64,000 bases of DNA from Thermanaeromonas toyohensis ToBE (GTDB lineage: Bacteria; Bacillota; DSM-521; Neomoorellales; Neomoorellaceae). Positions 5,304 through 38,124 of this stretch are shown here, piece after piece (the stretch's first letter is position 1; each line of letters opens with the position of its first letter). The notes under the pieces were generated by a model. It saw nothing but the letters and a program-made list of their open reading frames with translations. It was not told the DNA's origin and did no database searches. The position numbers and the translations under genes were made by a program. Where the stretch lies: positions 2,003,587 through 2,067,586 of the forward strand of contig NZ_LT838272.1 of NCBI RefSeq assembly GCF_900176005.1, read 5' to 3'.

Positions 5304-5575
5304 TTCCCCATAGCCACCCGTTTCCCCCTTTCATACTCCTCATAATTTGCCTGCGCCTTCCTACGAGCCTCCTCACACTTGCGTATGGTGTATACCCCTT
5401 CTATGCCGGGGCAGAATTTCCAGAAGAAAGGGATCCGGTTCTTGCAATCCGTGCAAATCTTATTAGCCTCCGGCGGCGGAGGCACCTCGGCCCCACACCT
5501 GGGGCATGTCCAGGTAGAAGCTGCCGCCGCCGAGTACATGAGAAAACCGCATACCTGGCATATCCTTTCCTGCAT
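5297..5575 (-). CDS. Zinc-ribbon phage protein (92 aa)
   Basis: Four CxxC-type pairs or half pairs are visible: CQVCG, CPRCG, CTDCK and a lone FCPG further on. The first two make a rubredoxin-like zinc ribbon. A charged helical C-terminus follows (RRKAQANYEEYERGKR). Its ATG shares a base with the stop of the gene before it (TAATG). Role unknown; it sits among early phage genes. Confidence 0.6.
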   Translation of the reverse strand: MQERICQVCGFLMYSAAAASTWTCPRCGAEVPPPPEANKICTDCKNRIPFFWKFCPGIEGVYTIRKCEEARRKAQANYEEYERGKRVAMGKC

Positions 5576-5934
5576 TACTGCCGCCTCCCTACCCAGAGTT
5601 GAAGTTCATCATTCCACTCCGCTCTAAACCTAGTTGGAAGACTAATACCTAGCTCCTTAAGCTTTTCCGCCAGAGCTCTACAGCATACTCTTTTAGCTTG
5701 TGTCTTCTTCCCCTTCGGTCGTTCCATTCTAAATCGCAAACCGGTAGGAGCAGGGCGCAACACCAAGATCGTTCCCTTTTTGTTGAGTAAGAGCTCTATT
5801 CTTTCCCCGTCTTGGAAATTGGCTCCCAGCAGCGAAGAAAGCCGTACATCGCCCCGTGGACTAATAGTAATCCAGTGCGCGGAACTGCTCTTTTGTAACA
5901 CCCTTGCGCTTCCGCCTGCGGTAATTCTCAGCAT
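5575..5934 (-). CDS. Phage protein of unknown function, AbrB-like N-terminus possible
   Basis: Up to 119 aa. The N-terminal half (WITISPRGDVRLSSLLGANFQDGERIELLL) resembles the short beta-rich swapped-hairpin pattern of AbrB/SpoVT-like proteins. The C-terminal half is basic. The ATG at 5934 lacks a good ribosome site; a GTG 11 codons later has GGAAG upstream and is an alternative. It partly overlaps a 42-aa frame. Family not established. Confidence 0.5.
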   Translation of the reverse strand: MLRITAGGSARVLQKSSSAHWITISPRGDVRLSSLLGANFQDGERIELLLNKKGTILVLRPAPTGLRFRMERPKGKKTQAKRVCCRALAEKLKELGISLPTRFRAEWNDELQLWVGRRQ

Positions 5935-5989
5935 CTAGAAACGCTGCCCGGGCGTAACCCACATCCCGGGCCCGCCATGCTTTTTTCAT
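5861..5989 (-). CDS. Possible 42-aa basic phage peptide
   Basis: ATG at 5989 follows AGGTGG by 4-5 nt. The peptide is highly basic (MKKAWRARDVGYARAAF, then NYRRRKRKG) and ends in YY-stop. It overlaps the start of the next gene by about 75 bp in another frame. A good ribosome site and coherent composition favour a real gene, but it is short. Confidence 0.4.
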   Translation of the reverse strand: MKKAWRARDVGYARAAFLDAENYRRRKRKGVTKEQFRALDYY

Positions 5990-29113: not shown

Positions 29114-29150
29114 TAAAAAACTAGAGTTACCTAGAAAGAGGTAACTCTAG
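29114..29150 (-). terminator. Intrinsic terminator after the NrfD gene
   Basis: CTAGAGTTACCT (29121-29132) pairs with AGGTAACTCTAG (29139-29150), loop AGAAAG. On the minus strand it is followed by TTTTTT. A perfect 12-bp stem ends the molybdoenzyme transcript. Confidence 0.85.
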
Positions 29151-29210: not shown

Positions 29211-30509
29211 TTATAGATTAAGGCTTTGGGTTGTGGAGAAAGGTATGGTTCTAGTTTTTCCCTCCCAGGTAGTGGGCAGCAGGTTATAAGAGCTAATCAT
29301 CCAGGAGCAAGTTATAAGAGCTAAAGCAAAGGGCAATAGATCAATAATTATTTCCCATGCACTGGGTACATAGGGCCATGTGCTAACGAATATAGGATTT
29401 CCAGGCTGGAATTGGCCTACAGCTACGGGATAACTCCAGAGCTCACTTTCTGTTCCCGGGAGAGTTAGGGCCAAGGGGAAGTGGTTGAAGGCCGGGAAAA
29501 GGAGGTTAAGGCGATGGATAAAGACACCGGCCAGTAAAATAAGGCATCCACCAAGGAGGGCGCGGGGCGAACTTATACCCCGGGAAGTTAAGAAATACAC
29601 CATGCTGAAGACGGTCAAGACTACTTCTAAGCCGTAAAGGGCTCCGTAGCGGCGGAAGAGAAGGGATAAGAGCTCAAGTTCTTCCGGGTTACCCCACCAC
29701 CAATGTATCACCAGATCCGTGGCTACCAAGAATAAATGTACCAATAGGGACCCAGCTGCAATCCGGCTTAAGATAGTAAAGGCAGCAGCATAGTGGGGGA
29801 ACCCTTCCTCTCCTATTCCTAAGAGGGCAATTAAAAGGCATAAAGCTGCACCAGAGGATACTGCTACGGCGATAAAATCAGCAGGCAGGATTGTCGTATA
29901 CCACCACTCGCGGGAAACCTGGGTGGCAAAAATAAGGGCGGTGATGGTGTGGATCAGTATAGCTACGGGCAGACCAACGAAGGCTATGCGTTTGCTCCAA
30001 GTAGTAGATATCTTTTTTACTTCCTCTTGGGAAAGTTTTCTAGTCCAATGGTTAAGAAAACCCCGGCCTTCCCTTTTCCAGTCGGGGAGGAGCTGGAAGT
30101 ACACGCTCAAAAAGGTGAGAACAATGTAAGAGGAAACTACAATAACATCCCATATCAGGGGTGAACGGAAATTGGGGTGTAGCAACAAAAAGTAGATTCT
30201 ATCCACCCTTCCTAGATCAGGGAGTATAATAACAGCAGCAGCCAAGATACTGGCGAAGGCGGATAAAGAAGCTATGCGGGTGAAGGGTTTTAAGGCTTCT
30301 AGACTAAATAAATAGACCGCCGAAGAAACTATTAATCCGCCCGCAGCTATGCCCACAAAAAAGGCAAAAGTAGCGATATATAAACCCCAGCTAAAGGGGT
30401 TACGCATATGGGTGATAATAAGGCCTGCTCTTACTTGATAGACCCAGGCTGATAAGCTGGCCAAAAGGAGAAAAAGGGCTAAAATTAAAGCTCGATTTCT
30501 TCTACGCAT
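29211..30509 (-). CDS. nrfD: NrfD/PsrC-type membrane quinol oxidoreductase subunit
   Basis: 432 aa with about ten hydrophobic segments (for example LILALFLLLASLSAWVY, GLYIATFAFFVGIAAGGLIV, WEIIIDLLPFALALIT). This is the NrfD/PsrC fold, which exchanges electrons with the menaquinone pool and anchors the FeS and Mo subunits. GAGGTG precedes the ATG. A gap of 96 bp separates it from the FeS subunit gene upstream, with which it forms one locus. Confidence 0.87.
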   Translation of the reverse strand: MRRRNRALILALFLLLASLSAWVYQVRAGLIITHMRNPFSWGLYIATFAFFVGIAAGGLIVSSAVYLFSLEALKPFTRIASLSAFASILAAAVIILPDLGRVDRIYFLLLHPNFRSPLIWDVIVVSSYIVLTFLSVYFQLLPDWKREGRGFLNHWTRKLSQEEVKKISTTWSKRIAFVGLPVAILIHTITALIFATQVSREWWYTTILPADFIAVAVSSGAALCLLIALLGIGEEGFPHYAAAFTILSRIAAGSLLVHLFLVATDLVIHWWWGNPEELELLSLLFRRYGALYGLEVVLTVFSMVYFLTSRGISSPRALLGGCLILLAGVFIHRLNLLFPAFNHFPLALTLPGTESELWSYPVAVGQFQPGNPIFVSTWPYVPSAWEIIIDLLPFALALITCSWMISSYNLLPTTWEGKTRTIPFSTTQSLNL

Positions 30510-30605: not shown

Positions 30606-31292
30606 TCACTTGCGAGGTGTTGTAGGGGGCAGATAGAATACTTTGGGTCGGGTACCCAGCTCCTCTTTAAGGCGGAAAGCCTGGCGCTGACGGAGCACTT
30701 GATTTACTTCTGAACTGGAATCCTCCAGATCCCCGAAGAAGCGAGCTCTAGCAGGGCAGGCCTGAACGCAGATGGGTTTTTCGCCGTTATCTGTATATTG
30801 GACGCAGAAAGTACATTTTTCCACCACACCTTTAGGCCGGTTAGGCGTATAAACTAGGCGCCCATTTTTATCTCTGTGGGGGAAGGGATAACCGTACTCA
30901 TATCCCTCCATGTACCCTGCTTTTCTTTTGGCTTTTTTAGGGTTTTCCCAGTTAAACTGACGGACTTGATAAGGACAGGCGGCCAGGCAATAACGGCACC
31001 CTATGCAACGCTCTAAATCCACCTGTACCCTACCCCAGTCATCGGTATAGGTTGCCCCTACCGGGCATACCTTTTGACAGGGAGGGTTATCGCACATCTG
31101 GCAGGCTACAGGCAAGAAATACATTTGAGGCTGTCCCTTTTGAAGGGTGGGTACTTGGTGCTCCCTACTTCCAGGAGTAAATACTCGGTTCCACCAGGTA
31201 CCTGGGGGCTGGGCGTTATGGGATTTGCAGACCACCATGCAGGTGCGGCATCCCACACAACGGTCCAGATCGATGACCATCCCTAGCTTCAT
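30606..31292 (-). CDS. Four-cluster ferredoxin-like subunit (PsrB/DmsB type)
   Basis: 228 aa from the ATG at 31292, which overlaps the Mo-subunit stop by 4 bp (ATGA); a longer frame to 31355 lies inside that gene. Four cluster motifs are present: CVGCRTCMVVC, CQMCDNPPCQKVCP, CIGCRYCLAACP and CTFCVQY...CVQACP. It conducts electrons between the membrane NrfD subunit and the molybdopterin subunit. Confidence 0.9.
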   Translation of the reverse strand: MKLGMVIDLDRCVGCRTCMVVCKSHNAQPPGTWWNRVFTPGSREHQVPTLQKGQPQMYFLPVACQMCDNPPCQKVCPVGATYTDDWGRVQVDLERCIGCRYCLAACPYQVRQFNWENPKKAKRKAGYMEGYEYGYPFPHRDKNGRLVYTPNRPKGVVEKCTFCVQYTDNGEKPICVQACPARARFFGDLEDSSSEVNQVLRQRQAFRLKEELGTRPKVFYLPPTTPRK

Positions 31293-33853
31293 TTTTCTTC
31301 CGCCACCTTTCTTACATCGCACAGAGTTTCGTTCCAGGCCGTATTGGGTGCCCATATGCCAGGGACAAAATAGATCTCATGGGTAGGCTTAATAAAGGGG
31401 TAAGTAAGGGAGTTATAGGAATCTCCTTGGAGATACCGGCTCCACCAGCCCTGCTCAAAGACTACTACTTTTCTGCTTAAGCCGGGGTCTAGGACGGCCC
31501 ATCCCCTTACCCGTCCCCGGTCATTATAGGCTTCTATCAGGTCTCCCTCCTTAATCCCTTTGGGGGCGGCATCTTCCGGGTTAAGGAATATCTTAGGCCT
31601 GTTATCCTGTAGTTCGTTCATCCATATATTGTTAGAGTGGGTGGAATGGACCCGGTACAGGGAATTGCGGGTAAGGAATACGAACTGGTACTTTCCTTTG
31701 GCCCCGGGGTTTAAAGCGTATTCGCTCTCTTCAAAGGGCGGTTTATGGACAGGCAAAGCTTCCCCGCGGGCTAAAAACCCTTCTTCCTCCCTGTAAAATT
31801 CGATCCGGCCGCTTTTTACGAATTTGGCAGTAGCCTCCAAGGGCGCTGGACGGCTTAAGGGAGGGAAGGGCTTACGGAAGTGGATTTGCTCGTAGAAGGG
31901 TATTTGCCGGTTACCTGGAACTTCCGATTTAAGACGGACCGGTCCCTTTTTAAGCTGTTCGATAGTGATACCTTCCACAGGAGGGCCGCCCGTCTTAAGG
32001 AGTAGCTCAATAACCTTTTCCGCTGCTTCCTTCTCCTCTAAACCCGGGAAAAAGTGGGCTTCAAACTGGGGATTAAGCCTTTTGGCTATCTCCCGAGCGA
32101 TCCACAATTCAGACCGGGATTCAAATAAGGGTTCAATGGCGGGCTGCTGGAGTTGCATATAGGGGTGCAAGGGGGTGGTAACCAGTTCAATCTTTTCATA
32201 CCAGGTGGCTACCGGGAATACCACGTCGCTATAACGGCAACTCGTAGTCATCTGATAATCCAGGGCTACAATTAATTCCAGTTCCCCCTTTTCGGCCATA
32301 TCCCTTAAACGGTTAGCCATATTATGCTGGTCGAAGGGGTTCCCCCACCCAAAGATGAGGGCTTTAAAGCCGTTTTGGGGATAGGGGGCGGTCATGGTTT
32401 TAGTGGGCCCATGGAGGAAATAAAGCCACGGGGTCCAACGGGGTGGCTTGGGGAACCACCATTCTTTCACATTGAACCGTATCCTGTACTGGCCGGCATA
32501 AGTGGAAATACCCGCGCCAGGTTGGCCGAGATTCCCCGTGAGCACAGGTATCAGGGCTAGGGCCCTCCCCTTTAGATCTCCGTGGTACCATTGGTAGTTG
32601 CTAGCTCCATAGATTACATGTAAGGGCTTGATAGTGGCCATCTCCCGGGCGAGCCTCTGTACAACTTCCTTACCTACTCCGGTTTCCTGCTCCACGTATT
32701 CTAACGTGTAGGTTTTAAGGTGCTCTTTTAACAGCTGGAAGATGGGTTTAACCTTCACCCTTTGGCCGTCTTTTAACTCCACTTCCCTTTCGCCTTCCAG
32801 TATTACGTCCGGGGGGAGGTTTAAGTCTTCTGGATGCACAGCAAGGAAATTTCCGTTATAGGCCACAAAAGCTTCTCGGTAAGGCGGGAGATCTTTAGGC
32901 CGATCCAAACCCTTGACTTCTTCTGCCTTTAGCCGGCGTTTGGTGTCTAGCCGCACCAGCAGAGGTAGATCGGTAAAGGTTTTGATAAATTGTTCATCAT
33001 ATAATTTCTCTTCAATAATAATCCGCGCTATCCCCAAGGCCAAGGCTGCATCGCTGCTCGGCTTAAGGCTTACCCACTCATCAGCTTTAGCCGCTGTAGG
33101 GCAGTAATTGGGGTCAAAGACTACTAGCTTAGCTCCTTGGTTTCTGGCCTGGATGAGAAGGTCAGAATCGACCAGCCTGGTAACAAGGAGATTGGAGCCA
33201 AATACAGCGATATACCTGGAGTTCAGCCACTCCAAGGGTTCTAGCTCTTCTGTTTGTACACCGAAGGTCTGGGGCCAAAACATAGGTAGATCGCCGTTTT
33301 TATCATAGGGATGGAAGAGGGTCCAGCCTGCCAGGGTAGAAAGGGCGATCCAGGCCCCTTTCTGGACGTGCCCCGTTCCTCCTACCTGGAAGCTAAAACT
33401 TATGCTTTCCGGACCGTACTTGCTAGCTATCTCCTTAAGGCGAGCTGCTGTATAATCCAACGCTTCTTCCCAGGAGACTTCCTTAAACTGACCGCTTCCC
33501 CGCGGTCCGGTTCTGATTAAAGGGCGCTTTAAGCGATCAGGTCCGTAAATGAGATTGATGTAGCTTAGACCCCTCAGGCAACCTCGTGGTCCATATAGCG
33601 GCTCTGGATAATCATCGGTAGGAAACAGGGTTTTGATCTGACCGTCCACTACCATAGCTTTGATACCACAGGCACCCGTACAGTTGGGCGAACAAACGGA
33701 GCGCACAAACTTGAACTGGGAGTTCTTTTCTTCCTTAGCTCCAGATGAGGGTATAAAATAGGCAGGTGAGGCTGCAGCACCGGCCAGAGCCGCAGCTACT
33801 GCCGAAGCTTTTAAAAATTGGCGCCGTGTAAGTTTAAGACCTTGTTTTTTCAT
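31289..33853 (-). CDS. Molybdopterin oxidoreductase catalytic subunit with Tat signal
   Basis: 854 aa. The N-terminal KLTRRQFLKASAVAAALAGA is a twin-Arg export signal, so the enzyme works outside the membrane. CSPNCTGACG is the [4Fe-4S] site. GDLPMFWPQTFGVQTEELE and an upstream PYDKNGD favour the DMSO reductase superfamily of the DMSO/selenate/chlorate/tetrathionate class; the substrate cannot be read from sequence. It is followed by the FeS and NrfD genes (PsrABC-like operon) and preceded by a sigma-54 promoter. Confidence 0.85.
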   Translation of the reverse strand: MKKQGLKLTRRQFLKASAVAAALAGAAASPAYFIPSSGAKEEKNSQFKFVRSVCSPNCTGACGIKAMVVDGQIKTLFPTDDYPEPLYGPRGCLRGLSYINLIYGPDRLKRPLIRTGPRGSGQFKEVSWEEALDYTAARLKEIASKYGPESISFSFQVGGTGHVQKGAWIALSTLAGWTLFHPYDKNGDLPMFWPQTFGVQTEELEPLEWLNSRYIAVFGSNLLVTRLVDSDLLIQARNQGAKLVVFDPNYCPTAAKADEWVSLKPSSDAALALGIARIIIEEKLYDEQFIKTFTDLPLLVRLDTKRRLKAEEVKGLDRPKDLPPYREAFVAYNGNFLAVHPEDLNLPPDVILEGEREVELKDGQRVKVKPIFQLLKEHLKTYTLEYVEQETGVGKEVVQRLAREMATIKPLHVIYGASNYQWYHGDLKGRALALIPVLTGNLGQPGAGISTYAGQYRIRFNVKEWWFPKPPRWTPWLYFLHGPTKTMTAPYPQNGFKALIFGWGNPFDQHNMANRLRDMAEKGELELIVALDYQMTTSCRYSDVVFPVATWYEKIELVTTPLHPYMQLQQPAIEPLFESRSELWIAREIAKRLNPQFEAHFFPGLEEKEAAEKVIELLLKTGGPPVEGITIEQLKKGPVRLKSEVPGNRQIPFYEQIHFRKPFPPLSRPAPLEATAKFVKSGRIEFYREEEGFLARGEALPVHKPPFEESEYALNPGAKGKYQFVFLTRNSLYRVHSTHSNNIWMNELQDNRPKIFLNPEDAAPKGIKEGDLIEAYNDRGRVRGWAVLDPGLSRKVVVFEQGWWSRYLQGDSYNSLTYPFIKPTHEIYFVPGIWAPNTAWNETLCDVRKVAEEK

Positions 33854-34164
33854 CGTTACCAGTCACCCCACTCCTTCCTTGACAAGCAATTGTCTTCCTG
33901 AACACTAATCAAATCAAGCGAGCTTGGCCCAGGCTATTCAATATTTCTGGATGATGAGCCCCTATTTGTGAAGTTGTACTCATGTTTTCCGGAAAATCTT
34001 CTCTAGCAAATTTCGTGCCAAACACAAAAAGCCCTAGAATAAGATTTCTAGAGCTTCGAAAATAGGTGTTTTTAGAGCTTTGAAGATAGTATTTTAGAGC
34101 TTGTGAGAAGCCCTTTTAAGACCATCTCTCTAAAATCCTAGAAAGGGTCTCTAAATTTTTAGAA
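33854..34164. promoter_or_regulatory. Control region of the molybdoenzyme gene: sigma-54 promoter and AAGCTCTA repeats
   Basis: 311-bp gap. TGGCACGAAATTTGCT at 34020-34005 (minus) matches the -24/-12 consensus TGGCAC-N5-TTGCT exactly, giving a start near 33,994 and a leader of about 140 nt. AAGCTCTA (minus) occurs at 34056-34049, 34080-34073 and 34102-34095, 55-108 bp upstream of that start. Two more CTCTAAA half-sites follow in inverse orientation. These are good candidates for binding sites of the activator encoded at 36,439. Confidence 0.75.
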
Positions 34165-36396
34165 TCAGAGTCCAGAATTAGGCAGCAATGATAGCTCCTT
34201 TCCAGATTCTATTTTTTCTAGGCGGCAGGTACCTACTTTGGTCAAAGGCTGGCGTGAGATAGGATCCGTTATCCGCGATGTTAAATGATTAGCTGCCTGG
34301 GGTTGCTGCCTTTCTCCTGGGTCGAGGTCCCCGAAATGGAAGGGTAAAAATACTTCTCCTTTGGATACTACTGGGGTAACGCGGGCCCGTACCTTCACCC
34401 AGCCCTGGCGGGAAACCACCTTAACCCAATCCCCTTCCTTAATCCCAAGGGCCGCCGCATCCTGGGGATTTATTTCCACGAAGGGTTGGGGGATCAAAAC
34501 ATTTAACTCTAGGATACGCTTAGTTTTAGTACGAGTATGGTAATGCTCAATAACCCGGCCAGTGTTCAACCAGAAGGGGTAATCCGGATCCTTAAAAGGG
34601 GACGGGGGGTGGTAAGGTACGGCCCAGAGCTTAGCTCGGCCCGGGTTAGCGTTAAATTCGCCATAGGCTTGGGAAACTGCAGGATCGGTAGGGAAAAAGC
34701 CATCGGTATATAACCGGGCTGTACCGGTTTTAGCACCTTCGGGGCAGGGCCACTGGATACCCCCTTCAGCTTTAAGGCGGTTATAGGTTATACCTGTCAA
34801 ATCGTTAGGACGGTGACGCGTCAACTCTTTAAGCTCGTTAAATACTTCTTCTGGTCCTGGCCAGGGGAAAAGCCTTCCTGCTCCCAAATTACGGGCTACC
34901 TGGCATATAATAGTTAGGTCATCTTGAGCCTTTCCTGGTGGCTGGGTAACTTTCTGTACTAGGTTAACCCGGCGTTCAGAATTGGTTATGGTCCCTGTTT
35001 TTTCTCCCCATTGGGCAGCGGGGAGGAAAAGATCGGCATAGTAAGCAGTCTCCAGGGGATAAAATATATCCTGTACCACCAGGAATACTCGTTCCAACTG
35101 CCTCCGTACGTACTGCTGGTCTGGCAAAGACACAGCAGGGTTAGTACCGATCACCCAAAGCACCCGCAGGCGCCCGGCGTCGATAAGTTCTAACATAGTG
35201 TGGATATCATTGGTGTGCTGGGGCAATATTTTCTCCTCTACACCCCAGAACCGGGCTACTTCGTGGCGGTGCCTAGGATTCTTGGGATTGCGCAACCCTG
35301 GTAGACTTCCTGCTCCTCCTATCTCCCTCATGCTTAAAGACGAAGATTGGCCAGTTAAAGAAAGAGGTGCACACCCTGGGCGGCCTATCTTGCCAGTTAT
35401 AAGGTGTAGGGAATTGATGAGGGTGACCGTATCCACCGCTTGGAGGCTTTGGTTTACCCCCTGGCAGAAGAGGGTGACGGCTGTAGCTGCTCTTCCAAAT
35501 AGATGAGCAGCCTGGATAATATCCCTGGCTGGTACCCCGGTCAACTCCTGAGCTACTTCCGGAGGGAAATCCTGTGCTGCTACCTTTAGATCCTCGAATC
35601 CTGCTGTAGCCTTGGTAATGAATCCCCAGTCCAGCAAGTTTTCTCGGATAAGCACATAAATAATGGAGTAAACCAGGGGTATGTTGGAGCCACACCGTAG
35701 CCGAAGGTGCAAGTCAGCCACACTGGCCGGCAAGGTGAGACGGGGGTCAGCCACTATGAGTTTAGTACCTTTGCGCTGGCGGTTGCGTAAGATACGCTGC
35801 CAAACTTGGGGATGCATTTCCGCAGGGTTGGCGCCCAGGATAAAGATAACCTCAGCCGTATCCAGATCTTCATAACACCCCGGGGGAGCATCGATACCGA
35901 AGGAACGGATATATCCCATGGACGTAGAAGCCATGCAGAGGCGGGTATTAGCATCTATATTAGGAGTACCGAGGACACCTTTGGCTAGCTTATGCAAGGC
36001 ATAATATTCTTCTAGGGTGAGCTGTCCTCCATGATAAATACCTATAGCTTCTGGGCCGCCCTGTTCCAAGGCTTCCCGTATTTTCCGGGCCAGAGTTTCA
36101 TGAGCTTCCTCCCACGTTATAGGGACCATTTTCTCTCCTACCCGCCGGAGAGGACGGGTGGCCCTTTCGGGATGTTCTAATGTTTTCCAGGCATATATAC
36201 CTTTAAGGCATAATTGCCCTTGGTTTACGGAAGAAGAGGGGTTAGGTTTCACGGCCACTGCCCGGCCCTTTTTAACCCCCAGATATAACCCGCACCCGGT
36301 TCCACAATAACCGCAGGTTGTGTATATCCAGCTGTCCACCGTTTCCTCGTTATGGAGCAACTCTTCTAGAGAACGCCTGAATTCTAAATTATACAT
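34165..36396 (-). CDS. Nitrate reductase-like molybdopterin oxidoreductase
   Basis: 743 aa, cytoplasmic (no signal). CGYCGTGCGLYLGV is the N-terminal [4Fe-4S] motif, and ANTRLCMAST holds the Cys expected to bind Mo, as in NasA/NarB/NapA rather than the Sec/Cys of formate dehydrogenase. A C-terminal MopB-type domain (EHYHTRTKTKR, GDWVKVVSRQG) is complete. A partner gene for electron supply is not adjacent. Assimilatory nitrate reduction is the best guess; related formate dehydrogenase-like proteins cannot be excluded. Confidence 0.78.
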   Translation of the reverse strand: MYNLEFRRSLEELLHNEETVDSWIYTTCGYCGTGCGLYLGVKKGRAVAVKPNPSSSVNQGQLCLKGIYAWKTLEHPERATRPLRRVGEKMVPITWEEAHETLARKIREALEQGGPEAIGIYHGGQLTLEEYYALHKLAKGVLGTPNIDANTRLCMASTSMGYIRSFGIDAPPGCYEDLDTAEVIFILGANPAEMHPQVWQRILRNRQRKGTKLIVADPRLTLPASVADLHLRLRCGSNIPLVYSIIYVLIRENLLDWGFITKATAGFEDLKVAAQDFPPEVAQELTGVPARDIIQAAHLFGRAATAVTLFCQGVNQSLQAVDTVTLINSLHLITGKIGRPGCAPLSLTGQSSSLSMREIGGAGSLPGLRNPKNPRHRHEVARFWGVEEKILPQHTNDIHTMLELIDAGRLRVLWVIGTNPAVSLPDQQYVRRQLERVFLVVQDIFYPLETAYYADLFLPAAQWGEKTGTITNSERRVNLVQKVTQPPGKAQDDLTIICQVARNLGAGRLFPWPGPEEVFNELKELTRHRPNDLTGITYNRLKAEGGIQWPCPEGAKTGTARLYTDGFFPTDPAVSQAYGEFNANPGRAKLWAVPYHPPSPFKDPDYPFWLNTGRVIEHYHTRTKTKRILELNVLIPQPFVEINPQDAAALGIKEGDWVKVVSRQGWVKVRARVTPVVSKGEVFLPFHFGDLDPGERQQPQAANHLTSRITDPISRQPLTKVGTCRLEKIESGKELSLLPNSGL

Positions 36397-36438: not shown

Positions 36439-38124
36439 TTACCCCTCATTAAGGTTATATTTCTTAAGTTTTTGGTAAAGGCCAGAAGGATGTATCCCCA
36501 GTAGCCGCGCAGCTTCCTGTTTATTACCTTTGGCTGCCAGGAGGGCTTTCTTGATAGCTTCTTGCTCAGCTAGGGCAACTGCCTTTTTTAACTCAAACCC
36601 ACCCGAAGAAATAGATTGAGGAAAGGTAGGAGGTAGATGCTCGGGTAATATCAATTTATCCTCGGGATCTAGGAAATTAAACGCGTATTCCAGCACATTT
36701 TCCAGCTCCCGCACATTGCCCGGCCAGGAATATTCTTCAAAAAGTTCCTTAACTTTAGGGCTTAAGCCTTGGACTTCTAGCATGTACTTGATATTAAATT
36801 TCTGGATAAGACTGCGGCAAATGGGTTCGATATCCATGGGGCGTTCCCGGAGGGGAGGGATATGAAGGGTGATAACGGCCAGGCGATAATAAAGGTCTAA
36901 ACGGAATTTACCTTCTTTCACGAGGGACACCAGATCCTTATTGGTGGCTGCTATGATCCTAACATCAACGTTTAGGGTTTTTCTGCCCCCTATCCGCTCG
37001 AAGGAGCGTTCTTGCAGAACACGCAGTAACTTGGGTTGCATACTTAAAGGTAGATCGCCTATTTCGTCCAAGAACACGGTACCCCCATCGGCAAGTTCAA
37101 ATTTACCTGGCTTCCCACCACGAGCTGCTCCAGTAAAAGCCCCCTCTTCATACCCAAAAAGTTCCGCCTCCAGGAGATTTTCTGGTATGGCTGCACAATT
37201 AATTTTTATAAAAGGCTCTTTCCTCCTTCGGCTGGCCTGGTGGATAGCCCGGGCGAAGAGATCTTTTCCGGTACCGCTCTCACCTAAAAGAAGAACATTG
37301 GCTTCTCCTTGGGCTACCCGGGCAGCTAATTTTTTAAGCTCCTTTATTTGAGGGCTAATCCCTTGTATGGCTACCCAGGGGGATAGGTTTTCCTGTAGGA
37401 ATTCTAGTTCATCTTTATATAAAAGGAGCCTATTTTCCATTATTTTGAACTGATGGTAAAAATCTTTAAAGTTATCTTGTAGTATAGCCTCCTGGGGAAG
37501 CACCCGGCTTATTCCTCCTAATATCTCACCGCTTTTATTCTTTAACGGTATCTCCGCCAGACAAAGCCGCTGACCTTTAAACTGTACTTCAGGATTTAAG
37601 TAAGACCGACCTGTAGTAACAACTTCGAACAATCTAGAAAAGGGAAGTACCTGTGCCACGGGCAATCCTACAGCTGACTCCTCCCTCCAGCCGACCAGCG
37701 AAGCACAGTATTTATTGATAAATACTAGTTTCCCTTCTTTGTCCACGACCGCCAGACCTAGGGGTAACTCTGCCAGGAGGGCTTCATAAATTTCAGCGAG
37801 GTCATGCCCCGTGTCCCATTGTTCTAAAACAATTACAGTGTTACCTTCCCCCTCCGGTAGCGGAAAATAGCTAACTCGTATAGCACCCTTTATCCCTTGA
37901 ACCTTGGTACCTACTAAAGGCTGTCTAGTAGTCAGGACCTCAGAAAGGCGGGAGGCTGGGAAAACCTCAGTCAACTTTCGCCCGCGTACATCCTGACCAG
38001 GTACCCCCAGGATAACCAAGGCTTGGGGGTTAAACTCGGTAATAATACCTGATTTGTTTACCCATATCAGGCCATGGTTAAGAAGAGTTAAAATATAAGT
38101 TACCAAGTTATCTAGGCTAGGCAC
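36439..38124 (-). CDS. PAS-containing sigma-54-dependent activator
   Basis: 561 aa. Two PAS-like sensor regions (about 15-110 and 125-210) are followed by an AAA+ domain with GESGTGKD Walker A, EGAFTGA (sigma-54 contact loop), DEIGDLP and [11 protein letters not shown]-type Arg fingers, and a Fis-type C-terminal helix-turn-helix ([19 protein letters not shown]). It is 42 bp from the nitrate reductase-like gene and near the sigma-54 promoter of the Mo-subunit gene, its likely targets. Confidence 0.92.

Follow-up and report, generated by a model that had tools for sequence, protein, structure and literature searches.

The window analyzed here, i.e., the whole stretch of 64,000 nucleotides from the thermophilic anaerobe Thermanaeromonas toyohensis ToBE, carries on its minus strand a three-gene operon encoding a TAT-signal, type-II-like DMSO-family molybdopterin reductase (gene 1, 31289 to 33853; identified by profile and structure matches), a 4Fe-4S electron-transfer subunit (gene 2, 30606 to 31355) and an NrfD-like membrane subunit (gene 3, 29211 to 30509), followed on the same strand by a terminator-like hairpin with a 12-bp stem and then TTTTTT (29121 to 29150). 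Upstream of this operon, also on the minus strand, lie a gene for a Nap/Nas-like molybdoenzyme of 743 aa (34165 to 36396) and a gene for a sigma-54 activator of 561 aa (36439 to 38124) with two PAS domains, an AAA+ domain and a Fis-type HTH. The reading frames of the reductase and the 4Fe-4S subunit share 67 bases (31289-31355), and this overlap is conserved in relatives.

The nearest named relative of the reductase is encoded in a Thermanaeromonas MAG (92% identity), with Moorella species next; 11 other genomes from the same family (Moorellaceae) encode reductases with 78-92% identity to it. As its score for the type II DMSO reductase subfamily model TIGR03479 was 447.7 bits, compared to a cut-off of 984.75, the reductase is, judged by its sequence, type-II-like only. 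Its best solved-structure match is the perchlorate reductase PcrA (4YDD), which like NarG is a type II DMSO-family reductase, and its residue D188 aligns to the conserved Asp D170 of that protein, a Mo ligand. Unlike PcrA, where the FS0 motif has His first, the FS0 motif here (C-x3-C-x3-C, residues 54-62) has Cys first, which is unusual for a type-II-like enzyme; the NrfD-type membrane subunit also differs from those of type II DMSO-family reductases.

The first-pass annotation of this DNA had read TGGCACGAAATTTGCT (34020-34005, minus strand) as a -24/-12 promoter, and this reading stands. The box has the -24 GG and -12 GC at the fixed spacing (consensus TGGCAC(G/A)-N4-TTGC(A/T)), is the only perfect TGGCACGNNNNTTGCW match in the 64-kb window and would place the start of transcription at about 33994; a single full-length RpoN gene (Sigma54_DBD) is present in the genome (C1:497791). 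Upstream of the 11 Moorellaceae reductase orthologs, a strict sigma-54 pattern was found in 8 and a slightly relaxed one in 2 more, and the last (locus L011) has AGGCATAAATATTGCT at the equivalent position. The box also recurs outside Moorellaceae, in at least 3 other lineages (loci L059/L072, L060 from Paradesulfitobacterium, L100 and L172). No sigma-54 box was found in the upstream DNA examined at Desulfosporosinus reductases, which contains neither the molybdoenzyme nor an activator bearing the recognition helix described below. Given its recurrence upstream of orthologous operons, we consider that the sigma-54 promoter predicted for the reductase operon is real.

Further upstream, two 17-bp dyads represent candidate enhancer elements on the minus strand. 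Dyad A, TTCTAAAAATTTAGAGA (34148 to 34164), directly follows the stop codon that ends the 743-aa gene, and dyad B, TTCTAGGATTTTAGAGA (34127 to 34143), lies 21 bp from it; their centres are at approx. -162 and -141 relative to the predicted start. Inverted half-sites had previously been noted near a set of direct repeats (see below); these half-sites are present, but they are parts of the two complete palindromes, which reach 34164 and had gone unresolved. All syntenic loci likewise have two dyads between the molybdoenzyme stop codon and the terminator, with the consensus YTCTAnnATTTTAGAGA (TTCTAnnATTTTAGAGA) and a spacing of 21 bp (20 bp in L007 and L011); in L059, L060, L072 and L172, TTCG replaces TTCT in one or both left halves.

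When the whole window was scanned on both strands with a dyad matrix trained on other genera only, dyad A ranked first and dyad B second of all positions. The matrix scan covered the window; genome-wide tests for dyads were pattern searches. With no more than 1 mismatch, the tandem pattern was found in 11 of the 18 family genomes (Moorellaceae), in 10 of them at the reductase promoter and essentially once per genome; the one second match among these 10 (in genome G011) is apparently due to chance. The eleventh genome, G017, has a chance-like match elsewhere only, its own promoter site being spaced by 20 bp. Beyond the 10 genomes, the tandem is present at this promoter in two more family genomes with a spacing of 20 bp. 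A reversed tandem pattern, used as control, gave no match in the 10 family genomes. The distance from the start of dyad B to the TGG of the promoter is 78-81 bp in most genomes, representing several families, as compared to 102 bp in L100 and 123-125 bp in Thermanaeromonas. The element thus has the properties of an upstream activating sequence, i.e., a repeated dyad 80-250 bp upstream with conserved sequence and phase, and the conserved element of this promoter region, likely its enhancer, is the pair of tandem TTCTAnnATTTTAGAGA dyads, located further upstream than the direct repeats.

Single dyads also occur elsewhere in the genome (e.g., at C1:823841 and C1:247231). As these are located downstream of weak sigma-54-like boxes and as the activators beside them have other recognition helices, they were not taken as targets. 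A wider dyad regulon was rejected, since the tandem marks essentially one place per genome.

The first-pass annotation had also placed a PAS-type sigma-54 activator near the promoter. The 561-aa protein (38124-36439), whose gene is separated from the promoter by the 743-aa molybdoenzyme gene, is such an activator: its Sigma54_activat AAA+ domain contains the GAFTGA motif and both Walker motifs (A and B), a Fis-type HTH is present as well, and VFLDEIG is visible in its sequence. An orthologue of the activator (at least 57% identity) was found in each of the 12 family genomes that encode a full-length reductase and in none of the 6 that do not. Of the reductase loci, 43 had 3 kb or more of upstream DNA; among these, dyads were present in 7 of 7 loci encoding an activator with this recognition helix and in none of the 36 without it (P = 3e-8, Fisher's exact test; uncorrected for kinship and thus optimistic, because the loci are related by descent). 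The recognition helix is unchanged across orthologs that share only 47-54% overall identity, while paralogues from the same genome differ in it. A search of 398 genomes of the phylum, with the activator as sole query, retrieved a new family, represented by L172, with an identical recognition helix; here two dyads 21 bp apart are followed after 78 bp by TGGCACGTTTTTTGCT and then by the reductase. Overall, comparative evidence supports the earlier proposal that a sigma-54 promoter linked to the PAS activator makes the reductase operon an inducible unit. The genome does encode about 18 sigma-54 activators, so another of these could act at this promoter. In genome G009 (locus L157), the activator orthologue contains an in-frame TGA, with enhancer, promoter and reductase looking intact; either the sequence is in error here or the gene has recently become a pseudogene.

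Taken together, these data suggest, with a probability that we put at approx. 0.85, that the locus contains a dedicated enhancer-promoter unit in which the activator (38124-36439), bound to the dyads, loops to the sigma-54 polymerase and turns on the reductase operon. An activator oligomer would bind the two TTCTAnnATTTTAGAGA dyads, which lie on one face of the DNA at a spacing of 21 bp, just past the last gene of the activator's own transcription unit; a DNA loop spanning the terminator would bring the activator to the polymerase, its AAA+ ATPase would open the sigma-54 polymerase that waits at the -24/-12 box, and the three-gene respiratory molybdoenzyme operon would be switched on by a signal sensed through the PAS domains. 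We infer binding, ATP-driven activation, start site and signal in this scheme. The dyad-promoter spacing in Thermanaeromonas, which differs by about 44 bp, counts against it.

A different binding site had been proposed for the activator in the first-pass annotation, which reported three AAGCTCTA repeats upstream of the promoter and took them as a candidate binding motif. The repeats are indeed there (34102-34095, 34080-34073 and 34056-34049, minus strand), as exact copies about two helical turns apart. The 3.33-Mb genome has just four places with paired AAGCTCTA copies 8-24 bases apart, and two of them are the promoter cluster, so this very rare cluster is not due to chance; moreover, the core of repeat 1, CTCTAAAA, is kept in the sister genome, 44 bp from dyad B in both. 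However, a search upstream of orthologous genes in relatives found no AAGCTCTA upstream of any orthologous reductase gene checked, including all those whose activator shares the recognition helix. This is the very absence that the annotation had named as a refutation, and AAGCTCTA was rejected as a conserved motif because no ortholog carries a copy. Scored as full sites by the dyad matrix, the three copies ranked 178th, 1510th and 983rd. The AAG part of AAGCTCTA is its least conserved part, repeat 2 (34073 to 34080) is private to this genome, not being kept in the sister genome, and repeat 3 forms the 5' arm of a hairpin at 34057-34028. We therefore regard recognition of these direct repeats, located 55-108 bp ahead of the start, by the activator as very improbable. 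Repeat 1 contains a half-site, CTCTAAAAT (34091 to 34099, minus strand), which is 79 bp from the TGG, the position where relatives have dyad B; that this half-site, with CTCTAAAA as the relevant core, represents a remnant or, at best, an auxiliary activator site is an attractive but unproven idea. The remaining two places with paired AAGCTCTA are identical copies of AAGCTCTATGCGCTGCTTAAGCTCTA at distant sites (G000:C1:324624-324649 and G000:C1:2074427-2074452), which suggests a duplicated gene or mobile element.

The hairpin that includes repeat 3 (34057-34028, minus strand) has a 12-bp stem followed by T's and a folding energy of -14.6 kcal/mol (z -4.7); as a stable hairpin with a T run placed after a gene, it is a predicted intrinsic terminator. 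Most relatives have a hairpin and T run ahead of the -24 box even where the arm sequences are quite different, so the activator/molybdoenzyme transcript most likely ends at this structure. In L172, an obvious terminator is missing from the equivalent position.

One possible explanation for the dyads other than binding of the sigma-54 activator is that they bind another regulator, e.g., the IclR-type protein encoded at 39013-38189, with the activator using sites that escaped us. IclR proteins also bind palindromes, and the IclR-family gene adjoins the activator gene both here and in the sister genome. Nevertheless, no IclR homologue was detected beside the activator in other syntenic loci with dyads (e.g., L053, L098, L060, L072, L100 and L172), and the dyads track the helix of the activator across families; we thus give this explanation little credence. 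Even less probable, in our view, is that the palindromes function within the RNA or mark the 3' end for the upstream gene, and that the reductase is expressed through read-through or from a sigma-A promoter. While the dyads are located directly past the upstream gene, in a region that folds better than shuffled sequences and includes a sigma-A-like match (9/12, at 34119-34091), such matches occur near chance level in this region (21 found versus 16 expected). The terminator-like hairpin, furthermore, stands between the two units, and both the sigma-54 box and the 21-bp spacing of the dyads are conserved, a spacing that RNA hairpins would not need.

Binding of the dyads by the sigma-54 activator remains the preferred reading, and the signal sensed is probably nitrate, nitrite or another oxidized electron acceptor. 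This guess is drawn from the neighbours, as relatives in the activator family sit beside nap/nrf genes, the partner molybdoenzyme has a Nap/Nas-type Cys-Met active site, and the target is similar to the reductases for perchlorate and nitrate. The active site of the partner is presumably formed by its NTRLCMAS motif, with Cys-Met as in Nap/Nas enzymes and unlike the Cys/Sec-His of formate dehydrogenases. As Thermanaeromonas species have been described as thiosulfate reducers (PMC7427185), the reductase may also act on a substrate other than a nitrogen oxide.

The 743-aa molybdoenzyme is a constant partner of the activator. In L174, L175, L176 and L177, which represent other families, the activator and the Nap/Nas-like molybdoenzyme are adjacent and no reductase is present. 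L175 and L176/L177 still have the molybdoenzyme beside the activator and, downstream, a sigma-54 box that precedes nrfHA or Rieske/cytochrome b/napA genes; the activators of these loci have the helix LGI(H/Q)RSAFYQKLK, and dyads are absent. L174 also has a different recognition helix, with neither reductase nor dyads nor a sigma-54 box on that strand. In this small sample, enhancer and helix therefore seem to change together. In L175 (7033-7050) and L176 (8765-8782), the DNA that separates the molybdoenzyme gene from the sigma-54 box contains the sequence TGTCC-N8-GGACA; as this sequence was not rarer than its control genome-wide, it represents only a lead for the enhancer of the nap/nrf-linked homologues. 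It is tempting to speculate, although we consider this rather unlikely, that the activator and the adjacent molybdoenzyme form a fixed two-gene sensing module, with the enzyme as trigger enzyme or signal producer, and that parallel changes of helix and enhancer have directed this module to different respiratory operons (that of the reductase in this genome, nrf/nap in others).

Sigma-54 regulons have been reconstructed for 57 Clostridiales (Nie et al. 2019; PMC6615313); there, an activator typically has a single target next to it and several sites, many motifs being of the type TGT-N10-12-ACA. The activator described here resembles the one-component PAS-type activators of that study in its PAS, AAA+ and Fis-type HTH domains and in having its gene beside the target; multiple upstream sites and a sigma-54 box that fits TTGGCATNNNNNTTGCT are further shared features. 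Unlike the common TGT-N10-12-ACA type, the site here is TTCTAnnATTTTAGAGA. The reductase operon was not found in the main text of PMC6615313 or in its table, and our literature search brought up no publication dealing with this operon or with sigma-54 in Moorella or Thermanaeromonas. The best NCBIfam model for the activator (residues 108-557) is NF041552, the equivalog model for PrdR, a sigma-54 activator of proline reductase genes; with 427 bits compared to a cut-off of 795, the activator is not PrdR. It also differs from PrdR in its target and in its sites, those of PrdR being of the TGT/ACA type (PMC6615313). Overall, the switch is of a well-known type, and the enhancer motif has apparently not been described before.

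These analyses replace a doubtful motif with a specific enhancer sequence assigned to one of about 18 activators, and they place an uncharacterized respiratory molybdoenzyme under probable electron-acceptor control. With its varied helices and varied enhancer regions at equivalent positions, the activator family also represents a natural experiment on the specificity of Fis-type HTH domains.

In L060 (Paradesulfitobacterium), the sigma-54 promoter is followed first by a universal-stress-protein-like gene (5440-5980) and then by the reductase gene, and the two genes apparently share one operon. In L005, L006, L009 and L010, the leader from promoter to reductase start contains a short ORF behind a GGGGAGG site; this Moorella leader ORF (MTxNTT..., hydrophobic, approx. 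24 codons, in some out of frame) is possibly the remnant of a small membrane protein.
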